This document shows positions 10,201 to 26,478 of a DNA stretch of 64,000 nt, piece after piece (within the stretch, counting starts at the first letter, position 1; each line of letters starts with the position of its first letter). This DNA comes from Mesorhizobium sp. M9A.F.Ca.ET.002.03.1.2 (GTDB lineage: Bacteria; Pseudomonadota; Alphaproteobacteria; Rhizobiales; Rhizobiaceae), in contig NZ_CP034443.1 of NCBI RefSeq assembly GCF_003952365.1, positions 310,001 through 374,000 of the forward strand. Reading direction: 5' to 3'. The notes under the pieces were generated by a model that saw only the letters and a program-made list of their open reading frames with translations, ran no database searches and was not told the DNA's origin. The translations under genes were made by a program, and so were the position numbers.

Positions 10201-10917
10201 CTATTCCTGCTGGAATTGACAGGGCCAATCTTCAGGCCTCGTCAAGCCAGAAGGCAACTCGGTCCGGGCGTCTCCGCAAGCCATGTTGAGCTGCCACTGG
10301 GACAGACCCGCCGAATTGGAAAGATCGACGCCCTCGATACGGGTCAGAAAGAAAAAGGCGCGGTCAAAGTCTATCGGCGCGGTGAACGTCGCTCGTCGGA
10401 AGTCCGCCCGCGCGAGATTGGCAAACGAGAAGCGGCTGCCGCTGATATCGGCGTCATGGAACTGCGCACGCCCCAATTCTGCCTTTGTGAAATCAACATT
10501 GGTCAGATTGGCGTCCTGGAAATTCGAGCGCTGCATTTCCGCGCTCGCAAACACAGCGCCCTGCGCGTCCATTCGGCTGAAGTCGGTCCTGTAGGCCTCG
10601 ATTCTGTCGAACCGGGCGCCTCTGGCGGTCGAGTCGGCCAGGGAAGCACGCACAAGCGTTGCCTTCTCAAGATTTGCCGCAAGGAGATTGCTGTTCCTGA
10701 GGTCGGTCGAAGTGAAATCAACACCGAACAGGTTCGCCCCACTCAGGTCCTGTCCTTCTAGGATGAGAAGCTTCTTGTCACACTCGTGCCAATTGACGCC
10801 AGGCGTCGCGGCTGCGTGGCAATTGTGAGCAGCAGTGGCGTTCTGCCAAGCAAACACAGTGCAAACCGCTAGAACCAAGCCGGATGCGCCGTAAGCTCTG
10901 GTTCGCCTCAAAGTCAT
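10201..10917 (-). CDS. Exported pentapeptide-repeat protein
   Basis: A 238-residue protein from the ATG at 10917 (an in-frame start at 10947 adds ten residues). It has an N-terminal signal peptide (GLVLAVCTVFAWQNATAA), a short Cys-containing segment, then about 25 tandem A(D/N)LxX pentapeptides (residues about 55-190; for example DLSGANLFGVDFTSTDL), which fold as a right-handed quadrilateral beta helix. The C-terminal ACGDARTELPSGLTRPEDWP segment recurs in secreted rhizobial members of this family. The role is probably structural or protein binding in the periplasm. A perfect FNR/FixK box lies about 116 bp upstream of the start. Confidence 0.82.
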   Translation of the reverse strand: MTLRRTRAYGASGLVLAVCTVFAWQNATAAHNCHAAATPGVNWHECDKKLLILEGQDLSGANLFGVDFTSTDLRNSNLLAANLEKATLVRASLADSTARGARFDRIEAYRTDFSRMDAQGAVFASAEMQRSNFQDANLTNVDFTKAELGRAQFHDADISGSRFSFANLARADFRRATFTAPIDFDRAFFFLTRIEGVDLSNSAGLSQWQLNMACGDARTELPSGLTRPEDWPCQFQQE

Positions 10918-10947
10918 TGTTGCTGGACCTCTGCTACTCGCCGACAC

Positions 10948-11800: not shown

Positions 11801-12745
11801 TCAGCAAACGAACTCGGTCACAGCACTGTATTGGCGGTATCCCTCTCCCGCTACCACCATTCCCCCCACTCCAGCTAGCGGCGCCTTGTCCAGCTCCTTG
11901 ATGGTCCCGAAGACATGCTCGACGGTTTGCCGCCGAATCCGCATGGCATCGGGCATGCGGTCGAGCCTGGCCTGCATGGCGTCGATCACCTGCTCATGCT
12001 CCCAGCGCCGGATGCGCCGAAGCTTCTCGGGCGTACAGCGAGGCTTGAGTTCGCAGGTCGAGCAGGCGGTCAGATGACGATAGAAGATGACGTCGCCTTC
12101 GCGGTCCGATCGGTATCTGGTCAGTTCCTGTCCGGCTGGACAGGCATACAGATCCCGGCCGGCATCAAAGACGAAGTCCTGCTTGCCGAAGAAGCCGCGT
12201 TTCAGGCCGCTTGAGGTGAGCGACTTCGGCACGATGGCTTTGATGCCCGCATCGTCGCAGGCCAGCACTTCCTCCCCGAGAAGTAGCCGCGATCGGCTAG
12301 CACGATCAGTTCATCCGCGCCGGTGGCCTCCCTCGCTTGCTGGCCCATGTTGGTGAGCTGGGTGCGATCGTGACCGACATTGGTGACCTCGTGGGCCACG
12401 ACAGGTGATGCTTCGTGTCCACCGCCGCCTGAACGTTGTAGCCGACAAGTCCCGTGCCCTTGCCGTTGGTGGCCATGGCGCGGGCATCCGGATCGGTCAG
12501 CGAGACCTGGCCGTCGGGGCTGCCTCGACGGCTCTCTCCATCGCTTTCAGATCGCGCATCTGCTGGCGCAGGCGTTCGAGGCGCTCCGTCAGGCGATCCT
12601 TGCGCATCTCCGCCACCTCGTCCTCCTGACGATCGGCCGTGTCGAGCATCGACAAGTAGCGCTCGATGCTTGCCTCGATCTGCTCCACCCGACGGCGGAT
12701 TGCGCCGGGCGTAAAGTTCTTGTCGCGCGTGTTCACTCGCGTGAT
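11801..12745 (-). mobile_element. IS1182-like transposase remnant, 5'-truncated and frameshifted
   Basis: The minus strand holds the last two thirds of an IS1182-type transposase in several frames. It begins at about 12745 with NTRDKNFTPGAIRRRVEQI, then TDRQEDEVAEMRKDRL-type coiled-coil sequence, shifts near 12490 to the MAHEVTNVGHDRTQLTNMG segment, shifts again near 12260 to LACDDAGIKAIVPK, the Cys cluster (CSTCELKPRCTPEK) and RRQTVEHVFGTIKE, and ends GYRQYSAVTEFVC with the stop at 11801-11803. At least two frameshifts and loss of the N-terminal third make it non-functional. Its truncated end abuts the stop codon of aroQ. Confidence 0.85.
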
Positions 12746-12750
12746 CGTTC

Positions 12751-13200
12751 CTATGCTTGTTGGGCTTTGATCAAGAAGGCCAGTCGCTGCACGGCAAAAA
12801 CGTAACCTTGCGTGCCGAAACCCGCGATGACACCGGAAGCGATCGCAGAGACATAGGAGTGATGGCGGAAAGCCTCGCGCTTGTGCACGTTGGAGATGTG
12901 CACCTCGATGATCGGGTGGTCGAAGGTGTTGAGCGCATCTAGAATGGCGACGGACGTGTGGGTGAAAGCGGCGGGATTGATCACAATCCCGGCAGCCGCT
13001 TCTCGCGCCTCGTGGATCCAGTTGATGATCTCGAACTCGGCGTTGCTCTGAAGAAAGCGGACACGAAGTCCGTGCTCTCCCGCCACCCGAACACACTCGA
13101 CCTCCACGTCCGCCAAGGTTTCATGCCCGTAGATGTGCGGCTGACGCTTGCCGAGCAGGTTCAGGTTCGGCCCGTTGATGATGTAGATTTCAGGTGCCAT
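12751..13200 (-). CDS. aroQ: 3-dehydroquinate dehydratase, type II
   Basis: A 149-residue enzyme interconverting 3-dehydroquinate and 3-dehydroshikimate. Conserved elements: [17 protein letters not shown] with the catalytic Tyr24 and Arg19, [16 protein letters not shown] for the substrate pocket, and [18 protein letters not shown] with catalytic His101. The length matches the dodecameric type II family. It is the last gene of the nine-gene minus-strand operon that also holds a shikimate/quinate dehydrogenase and an importer, so a catabolic (quinate/shikimate) role is more likely than aromatic amino acid synthesis. The stop codon lies only a few bases from an IS1182 remnant, so sequence downstream of the operon may have been lost. 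Confidence 0.92.
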
Positions 13201-13252
13201 TCATTCTCGCTCCCACAAATTCTTGACAGGCGGATTCCGCCCAGCCCCGTAT

Positions 13253-13624
13253 TCAGAGGGGCAGAGTGTTACGGCTTACCGAGAGTTCTGGATCGGATTC
13301 GGTGATATCGATGCGAAGGCCGAGGCGTCCCCTTTCGAGTTCCTTGGCCACTGCGTACGCAGCAGCAGCGAAGACAAGTTGGGAGATCTCCTTGCGTACT
13401 TCGCGGGTTCGACCGGGCGCCATCCGCATGATGATCTGCACGAAGCAGTTGTCGTCGGCTTCGTCGGCGACGCAGGAAAAATTCGCTTCCTGCGCGAAGG
13501 TGCGCACGACGTTCGGAGCGAAATGGCCGCTGCTCTGCGCCGCGCTGTGGACGGCCCTTGCAAGCGCGTCGATATCGATGCGTCGCGATGATCCTGCACT
13601 GTATTCGATCGTGATGTGCGGCAT
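13253..13624 (-). CDS. 5-carboxymethyl-2-hydroxymuconate delta-isomerase-like protein (HpaF family)
   Basis: A 123-residue tautomerase-superfamily protein beginning MPHITIEYSAG, with Pro2, the catalytic base of this family once Met is removed. The middle (SCVADEADDNCFVQIIMRMAPGR) and the rest match CHM isomerases. In 4-hydroxyphenylacetate degradation this enzyme isomerises 5-carboxymethyl-2-hydroxymuconate, two steps before HpaH. HpaH- and HpaI-like genes sit in the divergent operon, which supports a related role, although no extradiol dioxygenase or HpaE/HpaG gene is present. It lies 9 bp after the dehydrogenase gene. Confidence 0.82.
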   Translation of the reverse strand: MPHITIEYSAGSSRRIDIDALARAVHSAAQSSGHFAPNVVRTFAQEANFSCVADEADDNCFVQIIMRMAPGRTREVRKEISQLVFAAAAYAVAKELERGRLGLRIDITESDPELSVSRNTLPL

Positions 13625-13633
13625 GGGCGGAGC

Positions 13634-14545
13634 TCAGGCGGGCGCGGCGTCGGCGCCGACCAGTTCGCTGAAATGCCGCCGCATCCGTGCCGCATCTGGT
13701 TCGATGCCGGCGAACAATCGGAGCGCTCCCGCCGCCTGGTAGACGACCATTCCGCCACCATCGAGCGTCCGGCAGCCGCGGTCGCGCGCAAGGGCCAGCA
13801 ACGGCGTCACGAGGGGCATGTAGACGATGTCGGCCACCCAGTGGCGGCTTTCGATCAGCGCACCGTCGAGCGGAAGCCCAGGATGATTTCGCATCCCGGT
13901 AGGCGTCGCATGAATAAGCCCGTCCGCCGCCTGCATCGCGGCTTCGATGTCTCCCGTTGCCGATGCCCGGCCGGGGGCGAACTGTTCGTTCAACGATCGC
14001 GCAAGGCTTTCAGCCCGACTGGCGTCCTGATCCGAAATGAGCAGATGACCCATTCCAAGGGACAGCGCCGCATGGGCGACCGCCGCGCCGGCGCCTCCTG
14101 CTCCCAGAAGCAGAGCGCGATCTCTCGTCACGTCTGGAAGACCCTGCCGGAAATTCTCATAGAATCCCGAGCAGTCCGTGTTGTGTCCGACGCGCTCCCC
14201 GTCGTGGAATACCACGGTGTTCACCGCGCCGAGCGAGCGTGCGTCGTCCGCCAGACGCGTAAGGAGGGGAAGCACGATCTGCTTGCAGGGGTGGGTGATG
14301 TTCACGCCCGCAAAGCCGCGATCCTCAACTTCCGACAGGAGGTCCGGCAGGTGATCCACCGCCACGCCCCGCAGGGTCAGGTCAATCAACTCGTAGGAAT
14401 AGTCGAGCCCGTGCAGGGAGGCCTCCCGCATATGGAGTGCCGGCGACTTCGACATCTGGATGTCGGCCCCAATCAGCCCGACGCGGACTTTGTGTCGGAG
14501 GGCGAACTTGTTGGATTCTGATGGCATGATGTTCCCAAATGACAT
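13634..14545 (-). CDS. Shikimate/quinate dehydrogenase (AroE family)
   Basis: A 303-residue NAD(P)-dependent dehydrogenase. It shows the substrate motif SKSPALHM (residues 32-39), catalytic Lys88 in NITHPCKQ, the NTD triplet at 122-124, the Rossmann loop GAGGAG (148-153) and a C-terminal GGGMVVYQAAGALRLF. The reaction is oxidation or reduction at C3 of shikimate or quinate. Clustering with a type II dehydroquinase, a TIM-barrel protein and an uptake system points to catabolic oxidation of imported quinate or shikimate. A second in-frame ATG at 14527, closer to a GGGAAC sequence, may be the true start. The gene lies 24 bp after the transporter ATPase. Confidence 0.9.
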   Translation of the reverse strand: MSFGNIMPSESNKFALRHKVRVGLIGADIQMSKSPALHMREASLHGLDYSYELIDLTLRGVAVDHLPDLLSEVEDRGFAGVNITHPCKQIVLPLLTRLADDARSLGAVNTVVFHDGERVGHNTDCSGFYENFRQGLPDVTRDRALLLGAGGAGAAVAHAALSLGMGHLLISDQDASRAESLARSLNEQFAPGRASATGDIEAAMQAADGLIHATPTGMRNHPGLPLDGALIESRHWVADIVYMPLVTPLLALARDRGCRTLDGGGMVVYQAAGALRLFAGIEPDAARMRRHFSELVGADAAPA

Positions 14546-14569
14546 GAAGGAAGCGCGGGACCCTTTGCT

Positions 14570-15331
14570 TTATTGATGAGCGAGTATCTCTCCGAGAAAT
14601 GCGCGCGTGCGCGGATGCGTCGGATTTCGGAAGAAGTCTTCCGGCTTGTCTTCCTCGATGATTTCGCCGGATGCCATGAAGATGACACGGTCGGCGACCT
14701 GGCGGGCAAAGCCCATTTCGTGCGTGACGCAGACCATGGTCATTCCCTCCCTTGCCAGGCCGATCATGGTGTCCAGCACCTCCTTCACCATTTCGGGATC
14801 AAGCGCGCTGGTCGGCTCGTCGAAGAGCATCGCCTTCGGTTCCATGCAGAGCGCGCGCGCTATGGCCACGCGCTGTTGCTGTCCGCCGCTTAGTTGAGAA
14901 GGGTATTTGTCCGCCTGATCGAGAATGCGGACGCGGTCGAGATACTTTCTCGCAATCGCTTCGGCCTCGGCCTTCGCGGTGCCGCGCACCCGCATCGGCG
15001 CAAGCGTGCAGTTCTGCAGCACGGTCATGTGAGGAAAGAGGTTAAAGCTCTGGAACACCATGCCGACTTCGCGGCGCACCGCGTCGATCGTCTTGGCCGT
15101 GCCGTCAAGAGCTGTCCCATCGACCTCAATCCGCCCCATCTCGAAGGCTTCGAGATGGTTGATGCACCGGATCAGCGTCGACTTGCCCGACCCCGACGGT
15201 CCGCAGAGCACGATTTTCTCGCCTCTGCGAACCGTGAGATCGATGGATTTCAAGGCATGGAACCTGCCGTACCACTTCCCGACGCCCTCCATGACGATGA
15301 GGGGTGTTTCGGAGTTTGAGGTGTTTGGCAC
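14570..15331 (-). CDS. Polar amino acid-type ABC transporter ATP-binding protein (GlnQ/HisP family)
   Basis: A 253-residue ATPase with Walker A (GPSGSGKST), Q loop ([14 protein letters not shown]), LSGGQQQR signature, Walker B ([14 protein letters not shown]) and the switch His in VTHEMGF. This is the polar amino acid uptake (PAAT) class. With the two permeases and binding protein upstream it forms a complete importer inside a catabolic operon. PAAT-class systems usually carry amino acids or opines but some carry small organic acids, so the operon context is the main clue to its substrate. Confidence 0.94.
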
Positions 15332-15355
15332 GGCAGGGATCCCTCTGGTTGCCCG

Positions 15356-16198
15356 TCAGTTGACCGTGTAGGGGATGTTCGGCATCGACTCGGGAAATTC
15401 GGGAAGCGGAAGCGCCATCCACTTCTTGTACACGTCCGCGTGTTCGCCACTCGCCTTGATCTTGTCGAGGAAGGCATTGACGGCTTCATTCCAGTCGCGT
15501 TCACCCAGTCGCGTGCCAACGCCGTTGTAGGAGGTCAGCAGAGGAAACTTCATTTCAAAAGTATCCGGCTTGGCATCGTTGAGGCGTTGCGGATAGAATT
15601 GGTTTCCGCCGACGGCCTGGACCTGACCCGACAGTAGAGCCTGAATCGTCGCCGCGTCGTCGTCGAACCGACGGATCGTCGCAGTCGGCGGGGCCTTCTC
15701 GGTTATGGCTTTGTCCATCGTGCTGGAACGCGGCACGCCGACTTCCTTCCCAGCCAAGTCTTCCGGCCCCTTTATGGCAACCGTCTTCTCCGCGACCACT
15801 CCGACGATGTTGCCGGCATAGGGCTTGCTGTATTGAATCGATTTTGCGCGCTCCTCGGTCATCGCCATCGTCGCGAACAGGATGTCGACCTTGCCGGTCA
15901 CCAGCGCCGGGATACGGTTCGCGACTGCCAAGGGGGCAAACTCAACCTCGACTCCCAATTCCTTGGCGAACAGCTTGGCGATGTCGGCGTCATAGCCGTC
16001 CTGCATGCCACTGGAATTGACGAACCCCCATGGCGCATTGTCGCCCTGGATACCGACGATGATTTTGCCTTTGGCCTTGATTTCCTCAACCGACGCAGCC
16101 TGTGCCATTGAGGCGCCGACGATGGGCACTGAGAGGAGCGCGATTGCTCCGGCAAGAATGCTGCGCCGCTTCACGCGCAGTACGAATGTGTCAAACAT
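15356..16198 (-). CDS. Periplasmic solute-binding protein, family 3
   Basis: A 280-residue SBP_bac_3 protein. The start at 16198 follows AGGGAG at 8 bp; it gives a basic N terminus and a signal peptide (SILAGAIALLSVPIVGASMAQA, long, with a possible twin-basic KRR start). The mature part shows the family's EEIKAKGKIIVGIQGDNAPW and GYDADIAKLFAKELGVEVEF segments. It delivers substrate to the two permeases encoded just upstream. A much longer open frame running back to 16852 overlaps permease genes and is spurious. Confidence 0.92.
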   Translation of the reverse strand: MFDTFVLRVKRRSILAGAIALLSVPIVGASMAQAASVEEIKAKGKIIVGIQGDNAPWGFVNSSGMQDGYDADIAKLFAKELGVEVEFAPLAVANRIPALVTGKVDILFATMAMTEERAKSIQYSKPYAGNIVGVVAEKTVAIKGPEDLAGKEVGVPRSSTMDKAITEKAPPTATIRRFDDDAATIQALLSGQVQAVGGNQFYPQRLNDAKPDTFEMKFPLLTSYNGVGTRLGERDWNEAVNAFLDKIKASGEHADVYKKWMALPLPEFPESMPNIPYTVN

Positions 16199-16251
16199 AC
16201 TAGTCACTCCCTGGGTTGCATTTCCGGTATTCACCGGCTTTCGAAGCCCGC

Positions 16252-16902
16252 TTATCGAGCTGCCATCGCAAGCCGATTTTCGAGTCGGGTGCCGTAAAGA
16301 GACAGCGGCCAACAAATGACAAAGTAGATTGCGCCGACGATTCCGAAGACGATCAGCGGCCGGTACGTCTGGTTCGATATGATCTGACCCGCGCGGGCGA
16401 GTTCTATGAAGCCGACAATGGCCGCAAGCGACGTGCCCTTGATGAGCTGAACGAGAAAGCCGACGGTCGCCGGCAGAGAGATCCGAAGCGCCTGCGGAAG
16501 AACGATGTCCTTCATGCGCGACGCGTAATGCAGTCCAAGTGCATTCGCGGCTTCGCTTTGGCCCTTCGGGATTGCCTGGATCGCGCCGCGCCAAACCTCG
16601 CCGAGAAAGGCGCTCGCATGCAATGTGAACGCAATGGCGACCGCCACCCACGCCTCGACATTGAAGCCGAACAGCGCGATGCCGTAATAGACGACGAACA
16701 ACTGCATCAGAAGCGGCGTGCCCTGAAAGACCGAGATATATCCCCCGGCCGCTTGCCGCAGAACCTTGATCTCCGCGGTCCGCGCCAGCGCGATCAGAAG
16801 GCCGAAGACGCCGCCGCCGATAAAGCCGATCGCCGACAAGAGCAGCGTCCATTTAAGCCCCTGAAGAAGGAAGAGCAGTTCGTTCAGGCCCAAGGGTCCC
16901 AT
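16252..16902 (-). CDS. Polar amino acid-type ABC transporter permease (second of pair)
   Basis: A 216-residue HisM/GlnP-type inner-membrane permease with about five helices. The EAA loop that contacts the ATPase is clear (GEVWRGAIQAIPKGQSEAA, then NALGL). The FQGTPLLMQLFVVYYG segment near residue 60 is the family's N-terminal signature. It begins 10 bp after the first permease ends. The two permeases differ enough to form a heterodimer. Confidence 0.93.
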   Translation of the reverse strand: MGPLGLNELLFLLQGLKWTLLLSAIGFIGGGVFGLLIALARTAEIKVLRQAAGGYISVFQGTPLLMQLFVVYYGIALFGFNVEAWVAVAIAFTLHASAFLGEVWRGAIQAIPKGQSEAANALGLHYASRMKDIVLPQALRISLPATVGFLVQLIKGTSLAAIVGFIELARAGQIISNQTYRPLIVFGIVGAIYFVICWPLSLYGTRLENRLAMAAR

Positions 16903-16912
16903 CGTTACCTCC

Positions 16913-17581
16913 TCAACGCACTGGATAGCTGAAGTAATAGCGCGAGATGAATCCGAATATTCCCATCATAATCCACGAAATCACGAGATACATTAGTGTA
17001 ATTGTGAAATATACTTCAAAACTCTTGAAAGTATCTGACTCGATGATCTGCGCCACCGAAGTCAATTCATAAGCAGCAATTGACGTGCAGACTGACGTCG
17101 TCAGGGTCAACATGATGAACTGGCTTGTAAGTGATGGATAAATTGCGCGCAGCGCCGGCTTGAGGACGATCAGCCGGAACACCTGAGCGCGGTGCAACCC
17201 AAGCGCCAACCCAGCCTCGATCTGGCCTTTGTGAATACTCTCTACGCCTCCGCGAATGATCTCGATGGCATAGGCGCCACCATTGATTCCGAGGGCGATG
17301 ATTGCCGTCACGGTCGGGTTCAGGCGCAGCCCGAGGAGTGGCAGGGCGAAGAATATGAAGAAGATCTGCACCAGAAACGGTGTGTTGCGAACCACCTCGA
17401 CGAAGGCGATGACGAGGGTGCGAAGTGGTTTGAACTGAGACTTGCGGGCCACGACGCCAAGAACGCCGATCACGATCGCCAGCGCCATCCCGGCAAGCGC
17501 CAGACCCATCGTAGCCAAGGCGCCGAGCAGCAGCTCAGGCATCTTGTCGAACACGACGCCGAAGTCCAACGCATAGCCCAC
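16913..17581 (-). CDS. Polar amino acid-type ABC transporter permease (first of pair)
   Basis: A 222-residue permease with the VRNTPFLVQIFFIFFALP signature and the EAA loop (IRGGVESIHKGQIEAGLALG). It follows the TIM-barrel gene by 65 bp. The stretch around 16960-17090, near its 3' end, is noticeably more AT-rich than its neighbours, which may indicate local codon-use differences or transfer. Confidence 0.93.
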   Translation of the reverse strand: MGYALDFGVVFDKMPELLLGALATMGLALAGMALAIVIGVLGVVARKSQFKPLRTLVIAFVEVVRNTPFLVQIFFIFFALPLLGLRLNPTVTAIIALGINGGAYAIEIIRGGVESIHKGQIEAGLALGLHRAQVFRLIVLKPALRAIYPSLTSQFIMLTLTTSVCTSIAAYELTSVAQIIESDTFKSFEVYFTITLMYLVISWIMMGIFGFISRYYFSYPVR

Positions 17582-17646
17582 TTATTTCCTCCTCCCGTAC
17601 CACAGGCTCGAAGTCGCCTTCGGCCAGTGGATATTCCGCTTGCCGT

Positions 17647-18513
17647 TCAGCCTTCCCGTCTGGTTCGCGCTGCAACCTTCAGAATTTCCCGCGTCGCATT
17701 GAACAGCCGCCGGATATGGTCAGGCGGGCTGTCGGACGCGCCGATCGGCACCTCGACCGACAGCGCTGCGCCTGCAGGCAACTCCCGAAGAAGTTCGACC
17801 AGCGGAAGACTTCCAAAACCCGGAGCAAGCCGTCCCGTACGCGCTTCGCGGGTCATCTCCTCATGGGACCGGGGCGGCCGCGCGGCCGCATCGCACAACT
17901 GGACGCTTCTAATCAGCGCGGTCGGCACGGCTCGCAGATCGCCGGGTGCCCCGCCATTTCGCGAGAAATGCAGTGCGTCGACCAGGACGCCGCCGTTTGC
18001 CTTGCCGGCTTCCTCGACGACGGAAATGCTGTCCGAAAAGGTGGCGATGGAACGCCAGCCCATGTTCTCGAGATCGACGCTCATCTCAAATTCCGACGCC
18101 AGATCACATAAGGCGGCGAAGTTCGAGACGAGCCGTGACCGTTGCGGATCGTCTCCGCAGACACTGACCCTTTGCGCGCCGAGCACTCTGGCGGCTTCGA
18201 GAATCGGGGCAATTGCGGACGAAGTGAACTCCGGCGATATCGTCACGAACTCAATGTCGTAGACAGAAATCCCGGTGTCATCGAGCTGGTTGCGCAGGTC
18301 GCGAGATGCGGCGCTTCCAGCGGGCAATTCGTAGAAAGGTGCGCCGGGAAACGCCGGATAGAGCCGCAGACCAACCGCCGAGAAGCCGGCGCCGGCCGCC
18401 AATCCGACCAGCTCAACTGGCGGCACGCCGATCGCCGAGAAATGAGCCAGGCCGAGATGCGGCATCGCAAAAGCGGAACTCATCGAAATGCTTTCCTGAG
18501 CGCCAGCATTCAC
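17647..18513 (-). CDS. Xylose isomerase-like TIM-barrel protein (sugar phosphate isomerase/epimerase family)
   Basis: A 288-residue AP-endonuclease-2 fold protein: GLAHFSAIGVPPVELVGLAA at the first strand, SVDLENMG mid-barrel with a metal-type Glu, GVLVDALHFSRNGG with the Asp/His pair, and LSVEVPIG near the end. Members catalyse isomerisations, epimerisations or 3-dehydroshikimate dehydration (the QuiC/AsbF type gives protocatechuate). With shikimate/quinate dehydrogenase and dehydroquinase in the operon, dehydratase activity on 3-dehydroshikimate is a reasonable guess but the fold alone cannot prove it. The ATG at 18513 overlaps the gntR stop; another ATG at 18483 has a better ribosome site (AGGAAAG). 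Confidence 0.78.
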   Translation of the reverse strand: MNAGAQESISMSSAFAMPHLGLAHFSAIGVPPVELVGLAAGAGFSAVGLRLYPAFPGAPFYELPAGSAASRDLRNQLDDTGISVYDIEFVTISPEFTSSAIAPILEAARVLGAQRVSVCGDDPQRSRLVSNFAALCDLASEFEMSVDLENMGWRSIATFSDSISVVEEAGKANGGVLVDALHFSRNGGAPGDLRAVPTALIRSVQLCDAAARPPRSHEEMTREARTGRLAPGFGSLPLVELLRELPAGAALSVEVPIGASDSPPDHIRRLFNATREILKVAARTRREG

Positions 18514-19292
18514 CTGATCCCGTTGTCGGCGAGATGCTTGCGCAGATTTGTTCCCGTGCGGTGGATGTGATCGCGCAACTTGGCGCAGGCGTAATCCACG
18601 TCGCGCGCAACGGTGCCCTGGGCGATTTCACTGTGCTCGACGCTGACGTTGCGGTCGCCCGAGGTCGCGCGCAGAAAAGTTCGGCGGTAGCGGTCATTGA
18701 GGTTCAGAAGGACTTTGCAAAAGCTCAGCAGCAGCGGCTTGTTGCAACCCGCAATCAGCGTCAAATGGAATTCGCGGTGCAAAGCCTCCCATTTCTCAAG
18801 CGTCTCAGGCCGCGACGCATCGCGCTCGGTACGGTTAAGTCGGTGCAGAGCACGCATGACATCACCTTCCCAATTGAAGTCGCCGACCCTCATCGCTTCG
18901 CGGAGCGCGTATGTTTCAAGCTCTTCTCGCAAGCTGGTGATCTCTTCGAGATTGGAGAGCGACACCGACGCGACGCGGTAGCCGCGATTGTCCTCGAATT
19001 CGACAAGACCGTCCGAAATCAGCCTTGCCAGCGCCTCACGCAACGGGCTGAGGCTGACATGAAACTGTTGCCTCGCTCGATCGAGATTGATCTTGCTGCC
19101 GGCTTCGAGTTGCCCAGAGACAACGGCCTCGCGAAGTCGCGAAGCGAGTTGGCTGGCAATGGTGTTCTTGCCGTCGTCTACGAACAACTCGGAAGAACGC
19201 CCAACCGAACCAGCGGCCATCTCAGCCTCTTCTCCTAGCTTCGGTACCGCGACGTCCTTCACCATTACCTCCCGCCATCGACAACCGAACAC
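18510..19292 (-). CDS. GntR-family regulator with FCD ligand domain
   Basis: An N-terminal GntR winged helix (about residues 42-110: IASQLASRLREAVVSGQLEA, then SLSPLREALARLISDGLVEF) is followed by an all-helical FCD domain (about 115-245) with metal- or ligand-type residues in HREFHLTLIAG and the C-terminal HSEIAQG and RDHIHRTG histidines. FCD regulators usually respond to small carboxylic acids. It heads the minus operon and faces the divergent dioxygenase operon across a region rich in inverted repeats, so it probably controls both. The first methionine at 19292 has no clear ribosome site; a start near 19262 behind GGGAGG is likely. Confidence 0.9.
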   Translation of the reverse strand: MFGCRWREVMVKDVAVPKLGEEAEMAAGSVGRSSELFVDDGKNTIASQLASRLREAVVSGQLEAGSKINLDRARQQFHVSLSPLREALARLISDGLVEFEDNRGYRVASVSLSNLEEITSLREELETYALREAMRVGDFNWEGDVMRALHRLNRTERDASRPETLEKWEALHREFHLTLIAGCNKPLLLSFCKVLLNLNDRYRRTFLRATSGDRNVSVEHSEIAQGTVARDVDYACAKLRDHIHRTGTNLRKHLADNGIR

Positions 19293-19363
19293 TCGGTGGA
19301 TTGTCCCTAAGATAAACGATTATCTGTGTCAATCACAAGTGCTTAGAATGACCGAGTGCTCGG
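19285..19363. promoter_or_regulatory. Nested inverted repeats in the divergent promoter region
   Basis: CCGAACACTCGGT at 19285-19297 is complementary, with one mismatch, to ACCGAGTGCTCGG at 19351-19363. Between them at 19310-19325 lies a perfect palindrome AGATAA-N4-TTATCT. Such symmetrical sites between a regulator gene and the operon it faces are typical operators; GntR/FCD proteins bind short palindromes. The left arm overlaps the annotated 5' end of gntR, another reason to prefer the later start for that gene. Confidence 0.5.
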
Positions 19364-19515
19364 CACTGCATCCATGATAGGTCACAAAACTCATTATTTT
19401 CAATATGATATTCGTAATCTGCTGCCAGTTTCTCCCAGCTTTGAGGAGGTGAGAGGTAAATAGCTCTTGACAAATAATCGATGATTTTGCACAGAAAGGG
19501 TGACTAGGAGGCCCC

Positions 19516-20409
19516 ATGGTCATCGAGAACCAGCAGGACGTGACCGAAGCCGCACTCAGGGTCATGCAGCAGACAGGTGATCGGCGTCTGCGCGAAATCA
19601 TGACTTCTCTCATCACCCACCTTCATGCCTTCGTTCGCGAAGCGCGGTTGACCGAAGCCGAGTTCCGGGAAGCAGCCGGCATTCTCAACGAGATCGGCAA
19701 GCTGCAAACCGACCACCACAACGAGATGATTCTCATGGCTGGATCGCTCGGCGTCTCCACCCTGGTTTGCCTCCTCAACAACGGCGACCAAGGCCAGACG
19801 GAGACGTCCCAATCCCTGCTTGGCCCCTTCTGGCGACTGAACTCGCCGCGCGTGGAAAATGGCGGAACCATTGTCCGCTCCGACACGCCGGGCGTACCGC
19901 TGTTCGTGACCGCTCGCGTGCAGGACAGGAACCGCCAGCCCATCGTCGGCGCAGACGTCGATGTCTGGCACGCCTCTCCGGTCGGCCTTTACGAGAACCA
20001 GGATCCAGAGCAGGCCGACATGAATTTGCGCGGCAAATTCACGACGGACGCCGAGGGCCGCTTTTGGTTCAGGACCGTCAAGATGGTCGGTTATCCCATT
20101 CCGACCGATGGAGTGGTAGGGCGGCTTTTGCGTGCCCAGAACCGGCACCCTTACCGCCCCGCGCATCTCCATGCACTGATATTCAAGACAGGCTACAAGG
20201 TCCTGATTTCACAGGTCTTCGACCCGCGTGATCCGCATATCGGCGACGACGTCCAGTTCGGCGTCACCCGTGCACTGACGGGAGATTTCATTCGGCATGA
20301 CGAACCGCATCCCAGCGAACCGGCCATCGACGCACCGTGGTATTCGCTCGATTACACCTATGTGATGGAGCCTGGCGAAGCTGTGCTGCCGAAGCCGCCG
20401 ATCAAATAA
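19516..20409 (+). CDS. Intradiol ring-cleavage dioxygenase (catechol/hydroxyquinol 1,2-dioxygenase family)
   Basis: A 297-residue non-haem Fe(III) dioxygenase that splits an ortho-dihydroxy ring between the two hydroxyls. It has the N-terminal helical dimerisation domain (about 1-95) and the beta-sandwich catalytic domain, LLGPFWRLNSP at its start. The iron ligands are visible: Tyr159 (VGLYE), Tyr193 (GYPIPTDG), His217 and His219 (RPAHLHAL). The architecture is closest to hydroxyquinol 1,2-dioxygenases, but substrate cannot be assigned. A strong AGGAGG precedes the ATG. It heads a four-gene operon with hydratase and aldolase genes of the homoprotocatechuate meta pathway, which is an odd match for an intradiol enzyme. 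Confidence 0.9.
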   Translation: MVIENQQDVTEAALRVMQQTGDRRLREIMTSLITHLHAFVREARLTEAEFREAAGILNEIGKLQTDHHNEMILMAGSLGVSTLVCLLNNGDQGQTETSQSLLGPFWRLNSPRVENGGTIVRSDTPGVPLFVTARVQDRNRQPIVGADVDVWHASPVGLYENQDPEQADMNLRGKFTTDAEGRFWFRTVKMVGYPIPTDGVVGRLLRAQNRHPYRPAHLHALIFKTGYKVLISQVFDPRDPHIGDDVQFGVTRALTGDFIRHDEPHPSEPAIDAPWYSLDYTYVMEPGEAVLPKPPIK

Positions 20410-20466
20410 TTCAAGCCGGGCCGTCCGGCTTCCTCTGCCTTCCAATACTGCCGAAAGTACAAAGAA

Positions 20467-21249
20467 ATGCTCACCGACGAAGAACACCGCCGCGCCGCCG
20501 AAGCACTCCTCAACGCAGAACAGGTCCGCAAACCGATCCCGCAGCTCAGCCGCACCTATCCGCATATCGAGATCAAGGATGCCTATCGCATCCAGGATCT
20601 CTGGGCGGAGGGACGCATCGCCAAGGGCGCGCGCGTCGCCGGTCACAAGATCGGGCTGACATCGCGCGCAATGCAAATGGCGTCCAAGATGACTGAGCCG
20701 GACTATGGCCGCATCCTCGATGACGCCCTCTACAATGATGGAGCGCGGATCGATGCTGCCAGGTTCATCAAGCCGCGGCTGGAAGTCGAACTCGCCTTCG
20801 TCATGGGCGAGGATCTCGAAGGTCCTGGCACGCGCATCCATGACGTCATGCGGGCGACAGAATTCGTCGTGCCTGCGCTGGAGATCATCGACTACCGCAC
20901 GGAAGTGCCGCGCGCCATCACTGACACGATCGCCGACAACGCCGCCTTTGGCGCAATCGTTATCGGGGGGCGCACCATCCGGCCCATGGACGTCGACATT
21001 CGCTGGGTCGGCGCGACGCTTTCCAAGAACGGCATCATCGAAGAATCGGGTGTCTCCGCAGCTATCATGGGACATCCGGCTGCTGGGGTCGCCTGGCTGG
21101 TCAACAAACTGCATGCTGTCGGCGGCAAGCTGTCGAAGGGACAGATCGTTTTGGCAGGTTCCTTCACCCGCCCTGTCGACATCGCGGCTGGCGATGTGAT
21201 CCATGCGGATTACGGCCCACTCGGCGCGATCGGCGTGTCGTTCCAATGA
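20467..21249 (+). CDS. 2-oxo-hept-4-ene-1,7-dioate hydratase-like protein (HpaH family)
   Basis: A 260-residue member of the HpaH/MhpD hydratase branch of the FAA-hydrolase superfamily. [12 protein letters not shown] (about residues 59-70) is characteristic of HpaH; metal-binding acidic residues occur in [16 protein letters not shown]. The enzyme adds water to 2-oxo-hept-4-ene-1,7-dioate to give 4-hydroxy-2-oxoheptanedioate, the substrate of HpaI, whose homologue follows with an ATGA overlap. It lies 57 bp after the dioxygenase gene with only a weak GAAAG ribosome site. Confidence 0.87.
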
Positions 21250-22007
21250 GCCTTCCGCAAAACCGCTTCAAGAGCGCCATCCTGGAGGGTCGGCAGCAGA
21301 TCGGCCTGTGGTGCAGCCTGCCGGGAAGCTATGTGGCGGAAGCAGTCGCGGGGTCTGGCTACGACTGGCTGCTGTTCGACACCGAGCATTCTCCGGGCGA
21401 TCCGCTGACGGTTCTGCCGCAGCTCCAAGCCGTCGCCCCCTACGATGTCTCGGCGGTCGTCCGTCCGGCTAGCAACGACGCGGTGCTCATCAAGCGCTTC
21501 CTCGACTTCGGTGCGCAGACGCTTCTGATCCCCTATGTGCAGTCGCGCGAGGAAGCTAAGGCCGCCGTAGCGGCGATGCGATATCCGCCGGAAGGGATTC
21601 GTGGAGTCTCCGGCCTCACACGGGCCACGCGATTTGGCCGCGTCCCCGACTACGGCCGCACCGCCCACGCGCAGCTTTGCCTCCTGGTGCAGATTGAAAC
21701 CAGGGTCGCGCTCGACCGCCTGGAAGACATTGCCTCGGTCGAAGGGGTGGATGGTGTCTTCATTGGCCCGGCCGATCTCGCCGCGAGCCTGGGCTTGGTC
21801 GGCCAACCAGACCACCCGCAAGTGACCGCGGCGGTCGAGGATGCGATCGCTAGGTTGCGGGCGATCGGAAAGCCCTCCGGAATCCTGACGCCGAACGAGA
21901 GTTTCGCCCGTCGGTGCATCGAACTTGGTACGATGTTCACGGCGGTCGGCATCGACGCCGGATTGTTGGCGCGCGGCTCCGAAGCCCTCGCGACGAGGTT
22001 CCGATGA
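21246..22007 (+). CDS. 4-hydroxy-2-oxoheptanedioate aldolase-like protein (HpaI/GarL family)
   Basis: A 253-residue class II pyruvate aldolase with a TIM barrel. Visible are [10 protein letters not shown] with the general-base His, the [15 protein letters not shown] segment with a metal Glu, and [14 protein letters not shown] with a metal Asp. It retro-aldol cleaves 4-hydroxy-2-oxo acids into pyruvate and an aldehyde (succinate semialdehyde in the 4-hydroxyphenylacetate pathway). Start and stop codons overlap those of the neighbouring genes, so the four-gene operon is translationally coupled. Confidence 0.9.
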
Positions 22008-22783
22008 ACCGCGTGGAGGCACCCGTAACGAGCGAGGCAGATGACAGGAATGGGCTCGCCGCCCTTGCGAAGTCACGTCGGCTGCGTGCGGCCATCAACA
22101 TCGGCAACGCGGCGCTCGCGCAGCGGGACGAACGATCCGGCGCCCTCACCGGGGTAAGCCCCGCGATCGCCAGGGAGCTTTCCCGCCGCATCGGCTGCGA
22201 ACTCGACCTGGTCATCTATCCGTCGGCAGGGAAAGTCTCGGAAGCCGCCGAGCGCGGCGAATGGGAGATCGCGTTTCTGGCCAGGGATCCGGGCCGTGCG
22301 GACAGGCTTGCATTCTCGATACCCTATGTCGCCATCGAGGGGACTTACATCGTCCGCAAGGATTCCGGTTTCCGCGGGGCCGCCGATATCGACCGTCCAG
22401 GGCAGCGCGTCTGCGTGACCCACAATGCTGCCTACGACCATATTCTCTCCCGGCAGCTAGAACACGCGGAGATCGTCAGGGCGGCGACGCCGACGGACAC
22501 GCTCGCCCTGTTTCTCCAAGGGGGCCATAACGCCGCGGCGGGCATTCGCCAGCCGCTGGAGAATTACGCCCAGTCGCATCCCGAACTAAAAGTCCTTGAA
22601 GACCGTTTCGCGCTGATCGAACAGTGCATCGCGGTACCGAAGTCCGATGAAGACTCGATACCCGCGCTTGACCGGTTCCTCGCCCAGGCCATCGAAAGTG
22701 GAATGGTTCGGCAAGCGCTGGACCTGTCAGGTCAGCAGCAGGTAGCGGTTGCGACGGAAGCGTCTTTGGGCAGAACCGCCTGA
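22004..22783 (+). CDS. Family 3 solute-binding-like protein lacking a signal peptide
   Basis: A 259-residue protein with the SBP_bac_3 fold: [20 protein letters not shown], then [39 protein letters not shown] and later RALIEQC-type second-lobe sequence. The N terminus ([17 protein letters not shown]) is polar and has no signal sequence or membrane anchor, so the product should stay in the cytoplasm, unlike the proper binding protein at 15356-16198. The ATG overlaps the aldolase stop and no in-frame upstream start exists without entering that gene. It might act as a ligand-sensing or enzyme-like protein; the function is unknown. Confidence 0.78.
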
Positions 22784-23541: not shown

Positions 23542-24075
23542 ATGACCGAGGAACGTATCCAGCGTCGACTCGCCGCCGTAATCGCGGCAGATGTGGTTGG
23601 CTACAGCCGCCTCATGGAAACGGATGAGGCCGGGACGCTGGCCGCACTCAAGTCCCGACGCAAGCAAGTGCTGCAGCCGTTGGTCGCCAGGCACGATGGC
23701 CGGATTTTTAAGGTGACTGGCGATGGCGTGATGGTGGAGTTCACTAGCGCCGTCAACGCTTTGCAATGCGCGATAGACGTGCAGCATGCGATGGCTGCCG
23801 CCAATGCCGCGCTGCCTGAAAAGCTTCATATCGTGCTGCGCATCGGCGTCAATTTAGGTGATGTGATGGTCGAGGGCAGCGATCTTTATGGCGATGGAGT
23901 CAACATCGCTTCGCGCCTGGAAACCAACGCCGAGCCGGGCGGCATCCTCATCTCAGTGCGATCATCGCTTCACGACGCACATTTTCCTTCGTTATTTAAC
24001 AGGTACGCCAGTGCAATAGCAGGCTCGCGTTTCAGCCCCCAAAGCACGCAGTCATTCATGTGCGCGGGTCCTTGA
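23542..24075 (+). pseudogene. Class III adenylate/guanylate cyclase, truncated
   Basis: The first 140 residues are a good nucleotidyl cyclase catalytic domain: AAVIAADVVGYSRLMETDE with the first metal Asp, RIFKVTGDGVMVEF with the second, and LRIGVNLGDVMVEGSDLYGD then VNIASRLE. In full-length rhizobial relatives this domain is followed by an integral TPR or TolB-like part of about 400 residues. Here similarity stops right after EPGGILIS at about 23965 and the frame runs into unrelated sequence to a stop at 24075. It is therefore a broken gene, perhaps cut by the event that placed the small minus-strand genes here. Confidence 0.82.
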
Positions 24076-24214
24076 TTTCGAAGATCAACCAACTGTCATC
24101 CGGTGCCTGGATGGCTTCGAACCGCGTCTGGGCATCGAAATGGATCGGCTGTGCGTTAAGCTTTATTGTCAGGTCGACGAGTTGATCCGTAATCAGGCTC
24201 TCTTGGGTCATCAT
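24056..24214 (-). CDS. Small acidic protein, 52 residues, unknown function
   Basis: The product begins MMTQESLITDQLVDLTIKLN and ends SWLIFEIKDPRT. It has a natural amino-acid composition, alternating beta-like pattern and a run of G before the double ATG at 24214/24211. It lies 21 bp downstream of another small gene on the same strand (24236-24442), suggesting a two-gene unit. No family recognised. It overlaps the tail of the truncated cyclase frame, more evidence that this tail is not real coding sequence. Confidence 0.5.
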   Translation of the reverse strand: MMTQESLITDQLVDLTIKLNAQPIHFDAQTRFEAIQAPDDSWLIFEIKDPRT

Positions 24215-24235
24215 GGCCCCCCGGCCCAGCATCCG

Positions 24236-24442
24236 TCAGTATCTGCCGGGGTCATCACTGGGATGGCGGTTCCGAACCTGCGGGCCGAACCCGGTTGCCG
24301 CCCTGTAGGCCATCGACGTCGCCGAGGCATAGGCCGCCGACAGGCGACACAAGAACCGGCCAAGCCGGATCTGCGGCCATTTCGGCAGCCCGGCTGCGAG
24401 TGCCCGGCCAGTCTTTCCCAGAACCTCTGACACCACGGACAT
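24236..24442 (-). CDS. Small protein, 68 residues, unknown function
   Basis: The ATG at 24442 follows AGGAG at a suitable distance. The product begins MSVVSEVLGKTGRALAAGLP and contains an amphipathic stretch (LCRLSAAYASATSMAYRAAT); it is basic overall. A longer open frame to 24715 crosses into the divergent regulator gene and is not supported. It is divergent from the BTAD-domain regulator at 24562, with about 120 bp of shared promoter region. Confidence 0.5.
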   Translation of the reverse strand: MSVVSEVLGKTGRALAAGLPKWPQIRLGRFLCRLSAAYASATSMAYRAATGFGPQVRNRHPSDDPGRY

Positions 24443-24561
24443 TGGAGTTTCTCCTCGGATGGTGTTTAGTCGCGACAGGTAACTTCCAATTGAGGGCGTG
24501 AGGCGGCCGTGAAAAGCGCCGTGAAAACCGCGAAAAATGCCGGAATTCAGAGCAAATCGCG

Positions 24562-26478
24562 ATGAACCCGGCGCGTCTCGATCTCCTGGGCGGGTTTCGC
24601 CTGACGGCCGGGGACGGGCGAGCGCTGGACGTGCTGGCGAGGAAGAACCGGGCGCTGCTCGCCGTCCTGGCGATGGCGCCGAAGCAGGAGGCGACGCGCA
24701 ACCGGCTGGCGGCACTTCTGTGGGGCGGTCATGGCGAGGAGCAGGCCAAAAACAGCCTGCGGCAGGCGCTGGCCGCGATCCGCAAGGATTTTGCCGATCT
24801 GGATGCTGATGCGCTGATGCTGGTCGGCGACCGTGTCGGGCTCAATCCAAAGCATGTCACCATCGATGTTGCCGAATTTATCGCGGCCTCGTCGAGCCAT
24901 GACGTGGCCGACCTCCGCCAAGCGGCCGCCCTCTATGCCGGGCCGTTCCTCGAGGGTCTGGGGACGAGCGACAATGCTTTCGAGGACTGGTTGCGCGAGG
25001 CGCGCGACGATTTCACGACGCGGCCGATCCGCGTTTTCGAGGCGTTGGCGGCGGCGGTGAGCGGAGCCGAGCGCATCGCGGTCGCGGAACGGCTGGTGGC
25101 GCTCGATCCGCTGCGGGAGGCCTCGCACATCGCCTTGATGCAGGCGCATATGACCATGGGCCAGACCGCTCTTGCCATCAGGCAGTATGAGACCTGCGCA
25201 CTGCTGCTGAAGCGCGAATTGAAGGTCGAGCCGGGCGATGAGCTTCGGCGCTTGCGCTGCGCCGTTAACGAGCCGCAAGCCAAGCCGTCATCCGGCGGCG
25301 CGCCGAGCCGCAGGCCGGTGATCGCGGTCCTGCCCTTCGAGAACATGGGCGACGATCCCGGCCAGGAGTATTTCAGCGACGGCATAACCGAGGACATCAT
25401 CACCGAACTCGGCCGTTTCGGCGAACTTCACCTCATCGCCCGCAATTCGTCCTTCGCCTTCAAGGGAAGGGTCTTCGACACACAGACCATCGCCAAGCAG
25501 TTGTCGGCCGACTACCTGTTGGAGGGCAGCATCCGCCGGGCGGGCAACCGGGTTCGCATCTCGTCGCAACTCATCGACGCCAGGTCGGGCAACCTGATCT
25601 GGGCCGACCGGTTCGATCGGGACCTTACTGACATTTTCGAGCTTCAGGACGAGATCGCAAGGGCTGTAGCGACCATTGTAGCCGGCGCTGTCCGGACATC
25701 GGATGTGGAGAAGATACGCCGCGTTCCGATTGCCCAGCTCGATGCCGATCAGCTTTACCTGCGGGCGCGTGCTCTCGCCATACGCTATGACACGACCCGA
25801 GATGCGGAGCCCTATCTGGTCCGGGCGATCGAACTCGATCCGAACGTCGCGTCGGTCCATGCGATGATGGCGATTACGCTTACGGCCAAATGGCTGCTTG
25901 AGGGCACAGCGGACCATAGGGAGTTACTGGAGACCGCTCTCGTGCATGGCCGCCGCGCCATCAAGCTGGGGCCGCGGGACGTGTGGAGCCACATGGCGGT
26001 GTCGCATCCGCTGATCTTTCTTGGACAACCCGAGGAAGCGTTAAGCCATCTCGACCAAGCAATGGGCATCAATCCGAATGAAGGCCGGGCGAGAGCGTTT
26101 CGCGGAATGTGCCGCAGCTATCTGGGACGGCATGAAGAAGGATTGGCCGACCTCGACATCTGTATTGCCCACGATCCGCTCAGCCACGACTGGTTCTGGG
26201 ATGTCCGAGGGCAAATCTTGCTCGCCCTTGAGCGATATTCCGAGGCGATAGAGTCCTACCGCAATCTCAATTCCTACTCGTTTTGGGCACATGCATTTCT
26301 CGCCGTCTGCCATTGGCGGCAAGGGGATCGAGCGCTCGCCACCGCGGCCGTGAGGCAGTGCATGGCGGCCAGACCCGACGCGACTGTCAGCGCGATTTTG
26401 ATTGACCCCTATCGCAATCCGAAAATCCTTGACAATCTTCGACGCGACCTGCTCGCGCTCGGCATCCCCGACGGGTGA
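24562..26478 (+). CDS. BTAD-domain transcriptional regulator with TolB-like and TPR domains
   Basis: A 638-residue SARP-like protein: an N-terminal OmpR-type winged helix (about 1-95, with RKNRALLAVLAMAPKQEATR), a bacterial transcriptional activation domain of helical repeats (about 98-235), a TolB/FlgO-like alpha-beta domain (about 258-395: VIAVLPFENMGDDPGQEYFS, then DGITEDIITELGRF), and a TPR array (about 400-610, for example YLVRAIELDPNVASVHAMM). In rhizobia such proteins often sit by or replace the cyclase domain of TolB-TPR adenylate cyclases; the broken cyclase 500 bp upstream may be related in descent. Its target genes are unknown. Confidence 0.87.
   Translation: MNPARLDLLGGFRLTAGDGRALDVLARKNRALLAVLAMAPKQEATRNRLAALLWGGHGEEQAKNSLRQALAAIRKDFADLDADALMLVGDRVGLNPKHVTIDVAEFIAASSSHDVADLRQAAALYAGPFLEGLGTSDNAFEDWLREARDDFTTRPIRVFEALAAAVSGAERIAVAERLVALDPLREASHIALMQAHMTMGQTALAIRQYETCALLLKRELKVEPGDELRRLRCAVNEPQAKPSSGGAPSRRPVIAVLPFENMGDDPGQEYFSDGITEDIITELGRFGELHLIARNSSFAFKGRVFDTQTIAKQLSADYLLEGSIRRAGNRVRISSQLIDARSGNLIWADRFDRDLTDIFELQDEIARAVATIVAGAVRTSDVEKIRRVPIAQLDADQLYLRARALAIRYDTTRDAEPYLVRAIELDPNVASVHAMMAITLTAKWLLEGTADHRELLETALVHGRRAIKLGPRDVWSHMAVSHPLIFLGQPEEALSHLDQAMGINPNEGRARAFRGMCRSYLGRHEEGLADLDICIAHDPLSHDWFWDVRGQILLALERYSEAIESYRNLNSYSFWAHAFLAVCHWRQGDRALATAAVRQCMAARPDATVSAILIDPYRNPKILDNLRRDLLALGIPDG

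Follow-up and report, generated by a model that had tools for sequence, protein, structure and literature searches.

A cluster of 13 genes (14 in many relatives), located in a 64,000-nucleotide stretch of the 6.4-Mb, single-contig genome of Mesorhizobium sp. M9A.F.Ca.ET.002.03.1.2 (NZ_CP034443.1, positions 310,001 to 374,000; the whole stretch is hereafter called the window), constitutes a real, conserved and probably self-regulated pathway of root-nodule bacteria and their kin. We propose that it is a self-contained catabolic divergon, controlled by a GntR regulator and leading from quinate or shikimate through gallate to pyruvate and oxaloacetate, a model to which, taken as a whole, we give slightly less than even confidence. 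Its parts differ in strength: cleavage of the ring of a vicinal triol towards pyruvate appears moderately probable, the choice of gallate in particular as the ring substrate is tentative, and the formation of gallate from quinate or shikimate by this very cluster is more tentative still. We infer all substrates and the direction of each step.

In the proposed scheme, the ABC importer would take up a hydroaromatic acid of the quinate or shikimate type. Conversion to 3-dehydroshikimate would fall to AroQ and the AroE homologue, joined in many relatives by an IolG-like dehydrogenase. These enzymes would also carry out one further oxidation, to an aromatic with three vicinal hydroxyl groups (gallate being the most likely), which the dioxygenase would open in intradiol fashion to 4-carboxy-2-hydroxymuconate. 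This compound would be ketonised by CHMI, hydrated at C4 by HpaH to 4-carboxy-4-hydroxy-2-oxoadipate and split by HpaI into pyruvate and oxaloacetate. The GntR protein would repress both operons through two copies of a palindrome and be released by a pathway intermediate.

The 13 genes were verified with Pfam and NCBIfam profiles, nine on the minus and four on the plus strand, at the positions and with the families given by an earlier note on this DNA. In window coordinates, the divergon comprises:

12751..13200, minus strand: type II 3-dehydroquinate dehydratase AroQ (PF01220; TIGR01088 above cut-off)
13253..13624, minus strand: CHMI-family tautomerase (PF02962, 84.5 bits versus a cut-off of 26.5)
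13634..14545, minus strand: AroE-type quinate/shikimate dehydrogenase (NF009201/PRK12549, 427 bits versus a cut-off of 235)
14570..15331, minus strand: PAAT-type ABC ATPase (PF00005)
15356..16198, minus strand: periplasmic solute-binding protein (SBP) of family 3 (PF00497, SBP_bac_3)
16252..16902, minus strand: second PAAT-type ABC permease (PF00528)
16913..17581, minus strand: PAAT-type ABC permease (PF00528, TIGR01726)
17647..18513, minus strand: TIM-barrel enzyme, dehydroshikimate-dehydratase-like (AP_endonuc_2)
18510..19292, minus strand: GntR/FCD regulator (PF00392 and PF07729; start probably internal, near 19220)
19312..19323, no strand assigned: operator-like copy 1, ATAAACGATTAT, on the GntR side (palindrome comparison)
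19474..19485, no strand assigned: operator-like copy 2, ATAATCGATGAT, directly after TTGACA (19467-19472) and 5' of the dioxygenase gene
19516..20409, plus strand: intradiol ring-cleavage dioxygenase of the Gly76/Ala220 clade (PF04444 and PF00775)
20467..21249, plus strand: HpaH-type hydratase (TIGR02312, 364.4 bits versus a cut-off of 351.5)
21246..22007, plus strand: HpaI-type class II pyruvate aldolase (TIGR02311, 369.5 bits versus a cut-off of 368.8, a margin of 0.7)
22004..22783, plus strand: cytoplasmic binding-protein-fold (SBP-like) protein (PF00497; pLDDT 88.8)

Candidate lower pathway

HpaI-type aldolases release pyruvate and hence require a 4-hydroxy-2-oxo acid as substrate; HpaH adds water at C4 of 2-hydroxy-2,4-dienoates. 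Because HpaI frees pyruvate, the ring-cleavage product must be a 2-oxo or 2-hydroxy acid, and an intradiol enzyme yields such an acid only if a third hydroxyl group adjoins the cleaved diol, which points to a vicinal triol as the substrate. Pyrogallol would give 2-hydroxymuconate and gallate 4-carboxy-2-hydroxymuconate. By contrast, protocatechuate was rejected as the ring substrate, its intradiol product having no 2-oxo group for HpaI. The earlier note had proposed intradiol cleavage followed by isomerisation, hydration and aldol cleavage towards pyruvate, and this part of its reading is supported. Of the products that it had envisaged, pyruvate plus an aldehyde, pyruvate is retained; the aldehyde is not in the case of gallate, for which oxaloacetate is predicted, whereas pyrogallol would yield malonate semialdehyde.

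The same note had regarded CHMI, HpaH and HpaI as dependent on HpaD, HpaE and HpaG. It was right that none of the three is encoded in the locus, but they are not necessarily missing parts. 2-Hydroxymuconate is at the oxidation level that HpaD and HpaE reach in two steps; since intradiol cleavage of a vicinal triol gives this acid-level product directly, the HpaD and HpaE steps would not be needed, and neither, without a decarboxylation, would HpaG. The locus contains no HpaD extradiol dioxygenase, and the LigB-type extradiol enzymes of PF02900 were found in none of 10 cluster genomes. Glyoxalase-type HpaD (TIGR02295) scores above its cut-off in four of these 10, the genome of the window not being among them. 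HpaG (TIGR02303) is above cut-off in 0/10, with weaker FAH-family matches in all 10, and HpaE is absent from the genes of the locus, no genome-wide search for it having been made.

Among orthologues (47 to 85 for each protein, counting only those above set identity and coverage limits), there is no variation at the catalytic positions of the dioxygenase, CHMI, HpaH and HpaI or at the metal site of the TIM barrel. Among the residues that we take to be catalytic in CHMI, HpaH, HpaI, AroE and AroQ, CHMI retains the N-terminal proline (P2) and both arginines (R41, R72) in 47/47 orthologues, HpaH E106, E108 and E139 in 72/72, HpaI D45, H48, R73, E151 and D177 in 68/68, and the AroE-type dehydrogenase K88, D124, D172 and Q270 in 45/45, Asp172 being presumably the residue of NAD-type enzymes. 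The periplasmic SBP retains Arg117 and carries Asn199 at the site of what we take to be the usual ligand aspartate of family-3 binding proteins, both in 53/53 orthologues. Its start was placed at ATG 16198, not at 16852, because the longer open reading frame (ORF) runs into the permease gene. Orthologues of the GntR regulator cover 85-97% of its ORF, and the first ~35 residues are absent from many of them. The plus operon is tightly coupled, with 4-base overlaps between the HpaH and HpaI genes and between the HpaI and SBP-like genes. The SBP-like gene most likely starts at ATG 22004; no signal peptide is visible in the protein read from that codon or in the N-termini of its orthologues.

A distinct clade of intradiol dioxygenases

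The nearest solved relatives of the dioxygenase are hydroxyquinol dioxygenases (3n9t and 1tmx). The iron ligands Y159, Y193, H217 and H219, together with R214, are present in 85/85 orthologues. Two further positions, both outside the peptides used as search patterns, set the clade apart in an alignment of 93 clade members (the window included), five sister and 13 outgroup sequences. All clade members (93/93) have Gly at position 76, where Asp stands in four of five sister sequences (the fifth has Gly) and in 13/13 outgroup sequences; the position is also Asp in the two hydroxyquinol-enzyme alignments viewed, of five such entries listed. By counting along the alignment, it corresponds to Asp83 of 1tmx, which we take to be the functionally relevant aspartate of hydroxyquinol dioxygenases. 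With this residue replaced throughout the clade, hydroxyquinol was rejected as the ring substrate. Position 220, next to an iron-binding histidine, is Ala in 93/93 clade members versus Phe or Tyr in all 18 sister and outgroup sequences.

In four sister-clade loci (L052, L053, L054 and L055; ~60%), the genes after the dioxygenase encode an SDR, a beta-keto acid cleavage enzyme (BKACE) and a quinone-reductase-like protein, and three of these loci also have a sugar-type ABC importer; a hydroxyquinol/3-oxoadipate route ending in BKACE is possible there. In Sphingomonas vulcanisoli (L135:163-6889), two intradiol operons face each other. One holds HpaH, HpaI and MFS genes beside a clade dioxygenase; the other encodes an Asp-bearing intradiol enzyme, an iron-containing alcohol dehydrogenase (Fe-ADH) and an FAD hydroxylase, none of them above the NCBIfam cut-off for a specific function, and this second group would represent a hydroxyquinol set. 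Taken together, the sister-clade loci and the S. vulcanisoli arrangement suggest that the Gly76/Ala220 enzyme acts on a different, probably larger, triol than the hydroxyquinol enzymes.

Conservation of the cluster

Relatives were gathered by scanning genome contigs of 84,980 species, one genome per species, with two exact dioxygenase peptides as queries. Of the 467 matches, 455 were confirmed as relatives, and the best 80 named ones were kept. These loci are akin and some are near-copies, so that counts over loci do not represent independent events; gene presence was called by fixed thresholds, and many loci are cut short. All 13 window genes occur in 43 of the best 80 of the 455 relatives, in the order and on the strands of the window in 43/43, which answers in the affirmative the question, raised by the earlier note, of whether the same gene set recurs in other genomes; 38 of the 80 contain, in addition, the IolG-like dehydrogenase as a 14th gene. 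Overall, HpaH is found in 67, HpaI in 63, the TIM barrel in 69, GntR in 65, AroQ in 57, the AroE-type dehydrogenase in 45, CHMI in 44, the SBP-like protein in 50 and the IolG-like dehydrogenase in 45 of the 80. Among the 67 HpaH-bearing loci, the TIM barrel accompanies HpaH in 65, GntR in 64, AroQ in 57, the SBP-like protein in 50 and CHMI in 44, and among the 52 loci of at least 20 kb, 48 contain HpaH and 47 contain HpaI. Within the same genus, 9/9 genomes with a 76-79% identical dioxygenase hold all 13 genes; in a relative from another family (dioxygenase 72%), the gene sits instead between thiolase and pcaHG-like genes.

Carriers include Rhizobium, Sinorhizobium/Ensifer, Shinella, Agrobacterium, Mesorhizobium, Bosea, Methylobacterium, Microvirga and Aureimonas, with short versions of the cluster in one Sphingomonas and one gammaproteobacterial metagenome-assembled genome (MAG). 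A dioxygenase relative at E 1e-20 is present in 481 plasmid records, 79 of them with at least 60% identity; some plasmid records have the layout of the window and others shorter layouts. An annotated aromatic acid/H+ symporter lies between the HpaI and SBP-like genes in Methylobacterium nodulans. The gene listing of the loci took some antisense ORFs, and the gene content of the Bradyrhizobium-type loci discussed below was taken from other analyses. In L094, L122 and L132, a single open frame (533, 524 and 581 codons, respectively) occupies the place of the TIM barrel, and the listing shows no GntR frame of its own; these are possibly natural fusions.

Candidate operator sites

Comparison of 72 regions upstream of dioxygenase genes revealed a palindrome with the core ATAATCGATTAT. 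Copies with at most three mismatches to the core were counted in 84 upstream regions (73 HpaH-type and 11 Bradyrhizobium-type; L070 and L118 omitted). A near copy, 20-70 bases 5' of the dioxygenase gene, is present in 68/73 HpaH-type loci, and a far copy, at 150-270 bases, in 64/73; as the core was derived from largely the same, related sequences, these counts describe conservation and are not an independent test. Shuffled 70-base near stretches, the control for the near copy, contained a copy in 116/4200 cases, and neither copy was found in the Bradyrhizobium-type loci (0/11). The near copy is preceded by GAC in 67/68 loci, in the window as TTGACA, so that the palindrome lies just inside the likely promoter.

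In the whole Mesorhizobium genome, the exact degenerate pattern occurs at two places, both in this divergon; since the pattern was derived from the family, the informative part is its absence elsewhere. One mismatch adds eight further places, and with up to two mismatches the 201 matches (versus 25 with the reversed pattern) are too noisy to define a regulon, so that further sites may exist. Two copies between the operons and no exact one elsewhere make co-regulation of both halves likely, and the two operons are thus probably co-regulated, in line with the earlier view of the locus as a single unit, which the constant gene order also bears out. We infer that GntR binds the palindrome. The earlier note had raised the possibility of HpaD, HpaE or HpaG genes elsewhere that are co-regulated with this locus; none of the eight one-mismatch places has an HpaG-like or HpaD-like match of this genome less than 25 kb away.

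Putative upstream enzymes

AroQ, the AroE homologue and the importer are encoded in one operon, in agreement with the earlier proposal that genes for hydroaromatic acids act upstream. These genes point to quinate or shikimate, which they would process in the catabolic direction. The TIM barrel is structurally closest to QuiC1, Lmo2234 (presumably QuiC2) and IolI. Relative to the QuiC1 active-site residues listed in a passage of PMC7442255 and matched by counting along the alignment, it keeps six of the eight alignable ones (Glu134, Asp165, His168, Gln191, Arg210 and Glu239, invariant in 70/70) and differs at two, QuiC1 Leu136 being replaced by Met151 and Ser206 by Ala224 in 70/70; the aligned stretch does not extend to QuiC1 Arg64 and Leu97. 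L123 was misread in a wrong frame in alignment A2 and in the profile behind the QuiC1 alignment, and was left out of A4. Against the NCBIfam QuiC equivalog, a 635-position model of the two-domain form, the TIM barrel scores 25.5 bits versus a cut-off of 1200. A two-domain QuiC-type protein is present in seven of the 80 loci as a full-length match, below the NCBIfam cut-off in the three tested. Listeria QuiC2 is cited as representing a class of dehydroshikimate dehydratases (an entry in the reference list of PMC9324987).

The modelled SBP-like protein has a type II binding-protein fold, equally close to plain receptors and to cyclohexadienyl dehydratase. The general acid of the latter enzyme is Glu173, as given in the section of PMC7683729 that describes it, and the matching position, located by count, is Glu in six of 14 orthologues and D, G, S, I, V or F in the others. 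The assignment as cyclohexadienyl dehydratase was therefore rejected, the fold being shared but the catalytic glutamate not conserved.

Weighing the alternatives

Several observations weigh against the route through gallate. The TIM barrel resembles a dehydratase that would make protocatechuate, the intradiol product of which CHMI, HpaH and HpaI could not use, and no gene is proven to convert dehydroshikimate to gallate. The 14th gene is absent from the window, the best-scoring homologue in the genome being 26% identical and partial ones at most 36%. CHMI is absent from 23 of the 67 HpaH-bearing loci, 14 of them at least 19 kb long, and where present in the window, it scores 38.9 bits against the HpaF equivalog NF011605 (cut-off 215). 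The model has no part for the cytoplasmic SBP-like protein. Two pairs of adjacent, pcaGH-like intradiol genes (PF00775) were found in the genome, one of them 3-4 kb to the left of the window (C1:305698-306872) and the other at 6210521-6211698, so that this genome can probably also take protocatechuate. The one characterised precedent, the intradiol enzyme Acdo1p, converts pyrogallol to 2-hydroxymuconic acid, with values of 0.59 on pyrogallol versus 0.02 on gallate (in the units of the paper, the gallate assay of which sought a semialdehyde), according to the passages of PMC9204233 on this enzyme; its near inactivity on gallate counters simple extrapolation.

Furthermore, 12 of the 97 rows of the dioxygenase tree have a clade dioxygenase without linked HpaH, nine of these 12 with pcaF in the locus, and no HpaH of more than 53% identity was found in seven of the eight such genomes searched, some of them MAGs of unknown completeness. 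Either another downstream route operates there or the inference is wrong. (L070 was assigned to the HpaH-bearing rows despite a contig that stops short of the gene; L051 has no row, having apparently been dropped as a duplicate of L017, itself filtered out.) The HpaH-less members nest inside HpaH-bearing lineages, the label requiring at least three changes on well-supported branches, so that the link to HpaH looks ancestral and later lost. A close HpaH (74-84%), split over two frames, is present in the L126 genome of Bradyrhizobium jicamae (contig C4:156385-157160, L162). In the Bradyrhizobium-type loci L100, L101, L108, L112, L113 and L121, pcaF, an FAD dehydrogenase of the ketosteroid/4-oxocyclohexanecarboxylate type and AroQ lie 5' of the clade dioxygenase, with a QuiC-like TIM barrel in two of the six and a TctC-type gene next in L121. 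This FAD enzyme could form gallate by dehydrogenating 3-dehydroshikimate, in keeping with the model.

The Acdo1p precedent would favour pyrogallol, or another vicinal triol without the carboxyl group of gallate, as the substrate of the same lower pathway, with pyruvate and malonate semialdehyde as the products, and positions 76 and 220 are silent on which triol fits. However, the 13 genes include no decarboxylase, and AroQ, the AroE homologue and the annotation of an aromatic-acid symporter (L038) point to a C7 acid; we regard pyrogallol as unlikely. A low probability also attaches to two pathways under one regulator, in which the minus operon would lead from quinate or shikimate to protocatechuate and on into the pca route, and the plus operon would degrade an unrelated polyphenol. 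The QuiC1-like residues and structural neighbours of the TIM barrel and the pcaGH-family genes near the window are what such a division would predict, but in the short clusters L105, L116 and L119 the TIM barrel remains beside the dioxygenase and HpaH, with no AroQ or AroE homologue in the available stretch, a single palindrome pair lies between both operons, and in the seven loci that have both the TIM barrel and the two-domain QuiC-type protein, a plain dehydratase would be redundant.

It is quite improbable that the dioxygenase is a hydroxyquinol 1,2-dioxygenase producing maleylacetate, with HpaH and HpaI serving another substrate. Its nearest solved relatives are enzymes of this kind and the sister clade adjoins BKACE, but the aspartate of the hydroxyquinol enzymes is replaced in 93/93, a search of 101 loci at E 1e-25 with the Fe-ADH of L135, a candidate maleylacetate reductase, gave no homologue in the 100 others, and maleylacetate is not a 2-oxo acid that would yield pyruvate. 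Models of GarL and rhamnonate aldolase also score high, albeit below cut-off, against HpaI, as they might if it acted only on sugar acids and the operon degraded a non-aromatic compound; given that the HpaI model scores best, just above its cut-off, and that HpaI is linked to HpaH, CHMI and a dioxygenase whose iron ligands are complete, this appears very improbable. Returning to the gallate model, the broadest form of the claim is that Alphaproteobacteria degrade gallate through ferric intradiol cleavage, with all four lower Gal steps taken over by unrelated enzymes, make gallate rather than protocatechuate from quinate or shikimate and so possess a mobile, self-regulated second way from hydroaromatic acids into central metabolism; in this generality, we consider it rather unlikely.

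Comparison with known pathways

In the Gal pathway of Pseudomonas putida, ring cleavage, a tautomerase, a hydratase and an aldolase lead to pyruvate and oxaloacetate, and the Gal enzymes belong to other families than CHMI, HpaH and HpaI. The divergon has the same inferred order, but with an intradiol dioxygenase, CHMI, HpaH and HpaI in these places, whereas the LigB family PF02900, which we take to be that of GalA and DesB, is missing from all 10 cluster genomes. For the GalC step, the comparison follows the part of PMC10512348 that deals with it. With the Hpa meta pathway, the cluster shares HpaH and HpaI, both above equivalog cut-offs, and the CHMI family, but it lacks HpaD and HpaG, involves intradiol ring cleavage and is linked to quinate/shikimate genes. 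The clade enzyme and the hydroxyquinol 1,2-dioxygenases (1tmx, 3n9t) have the family and the iron ligands in common and differ in the change from Asp83 to Gly76 and from Phe or Tyr after the second histidine ligand to Ala220. Type II AroQ, an AroE homologue and a QuiC-like TIM barrel are shared with qui/qsu clusters; in contrast to these, the 13 genes include no beta-ketoadipate genes, the lower route running via HpaH and HpaI. In the pyrogallol route of Blastobotrys, as in the proposed one, an intradiol enzyme opens a vicinal triol to a 2-hydroxymuconate, but Acdo1p is a yeast catechol 1,2-dioxygenase with little gallate activity, and the passages of PMC9204233 that describe it name no later enzymes. 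No description of this cluster or of such a route was recognised among the open-licence PubMed Central papers that the literature searches listed.

Quinate, shikimate, gallate and tannins are common plant compounds. The clade dioxygenases are widespread on rhizobial plasmids and chromosomes, where they are annotated as catechol 1,2-dioxygenases or plain dioxygenases and their partners as homoprotocatechuate enzymes, so that public annotation splits the putative pathway between two others. If the model is correct, a bacterial intradiol enzyme that makes usable 2-hydroxymuconate from a vicinal triol would bear on the engineering of syringol and S-lignin conversion; a dioxygenase that turns pyrogallol into a product open to further metabolism is listed as future work in a passage of PMC6628648.

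Flanking regions

In relatives, aroQ is followed by a Gfo/Idh/MocA-type dehydrogenase, the 14th gene, the closest NCBIfam family of which is IolG inositol 2-dehydrogenase, below cut-off (130.9 versus 355 bits). With this best match, an assignment as a LigC-type dehydrogenase was rejected. In the window, the place of the IolG-like gene is occupied by a transposase remnant (11801-12736, with PF13751 at 11801-12268), which ends ~15 bases from the aroQ stop codon. The segment 11889-12736 matches plasmid DNA of Sinorhizobium fredii at 91.7% identity, and DNA similar to the remnant is annotated as IS1182-like in Methylobacterium plasmids. Given the remnant and the S. fredii-like stretch beside aroQ, an insertion may have removed the IolG-like gene from this locus. 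Farther out, an IS481 family transposase is encoded at 8782-9834 (NF033577) and a pentapeptide-repeat protein at 10201-10947, between both transposase genes. On the other side of the divergon, 23542-26478 encodes an adenylate/guanylate cyclase domain protein and, after it, a BTAD/TPR regulator-like protein.

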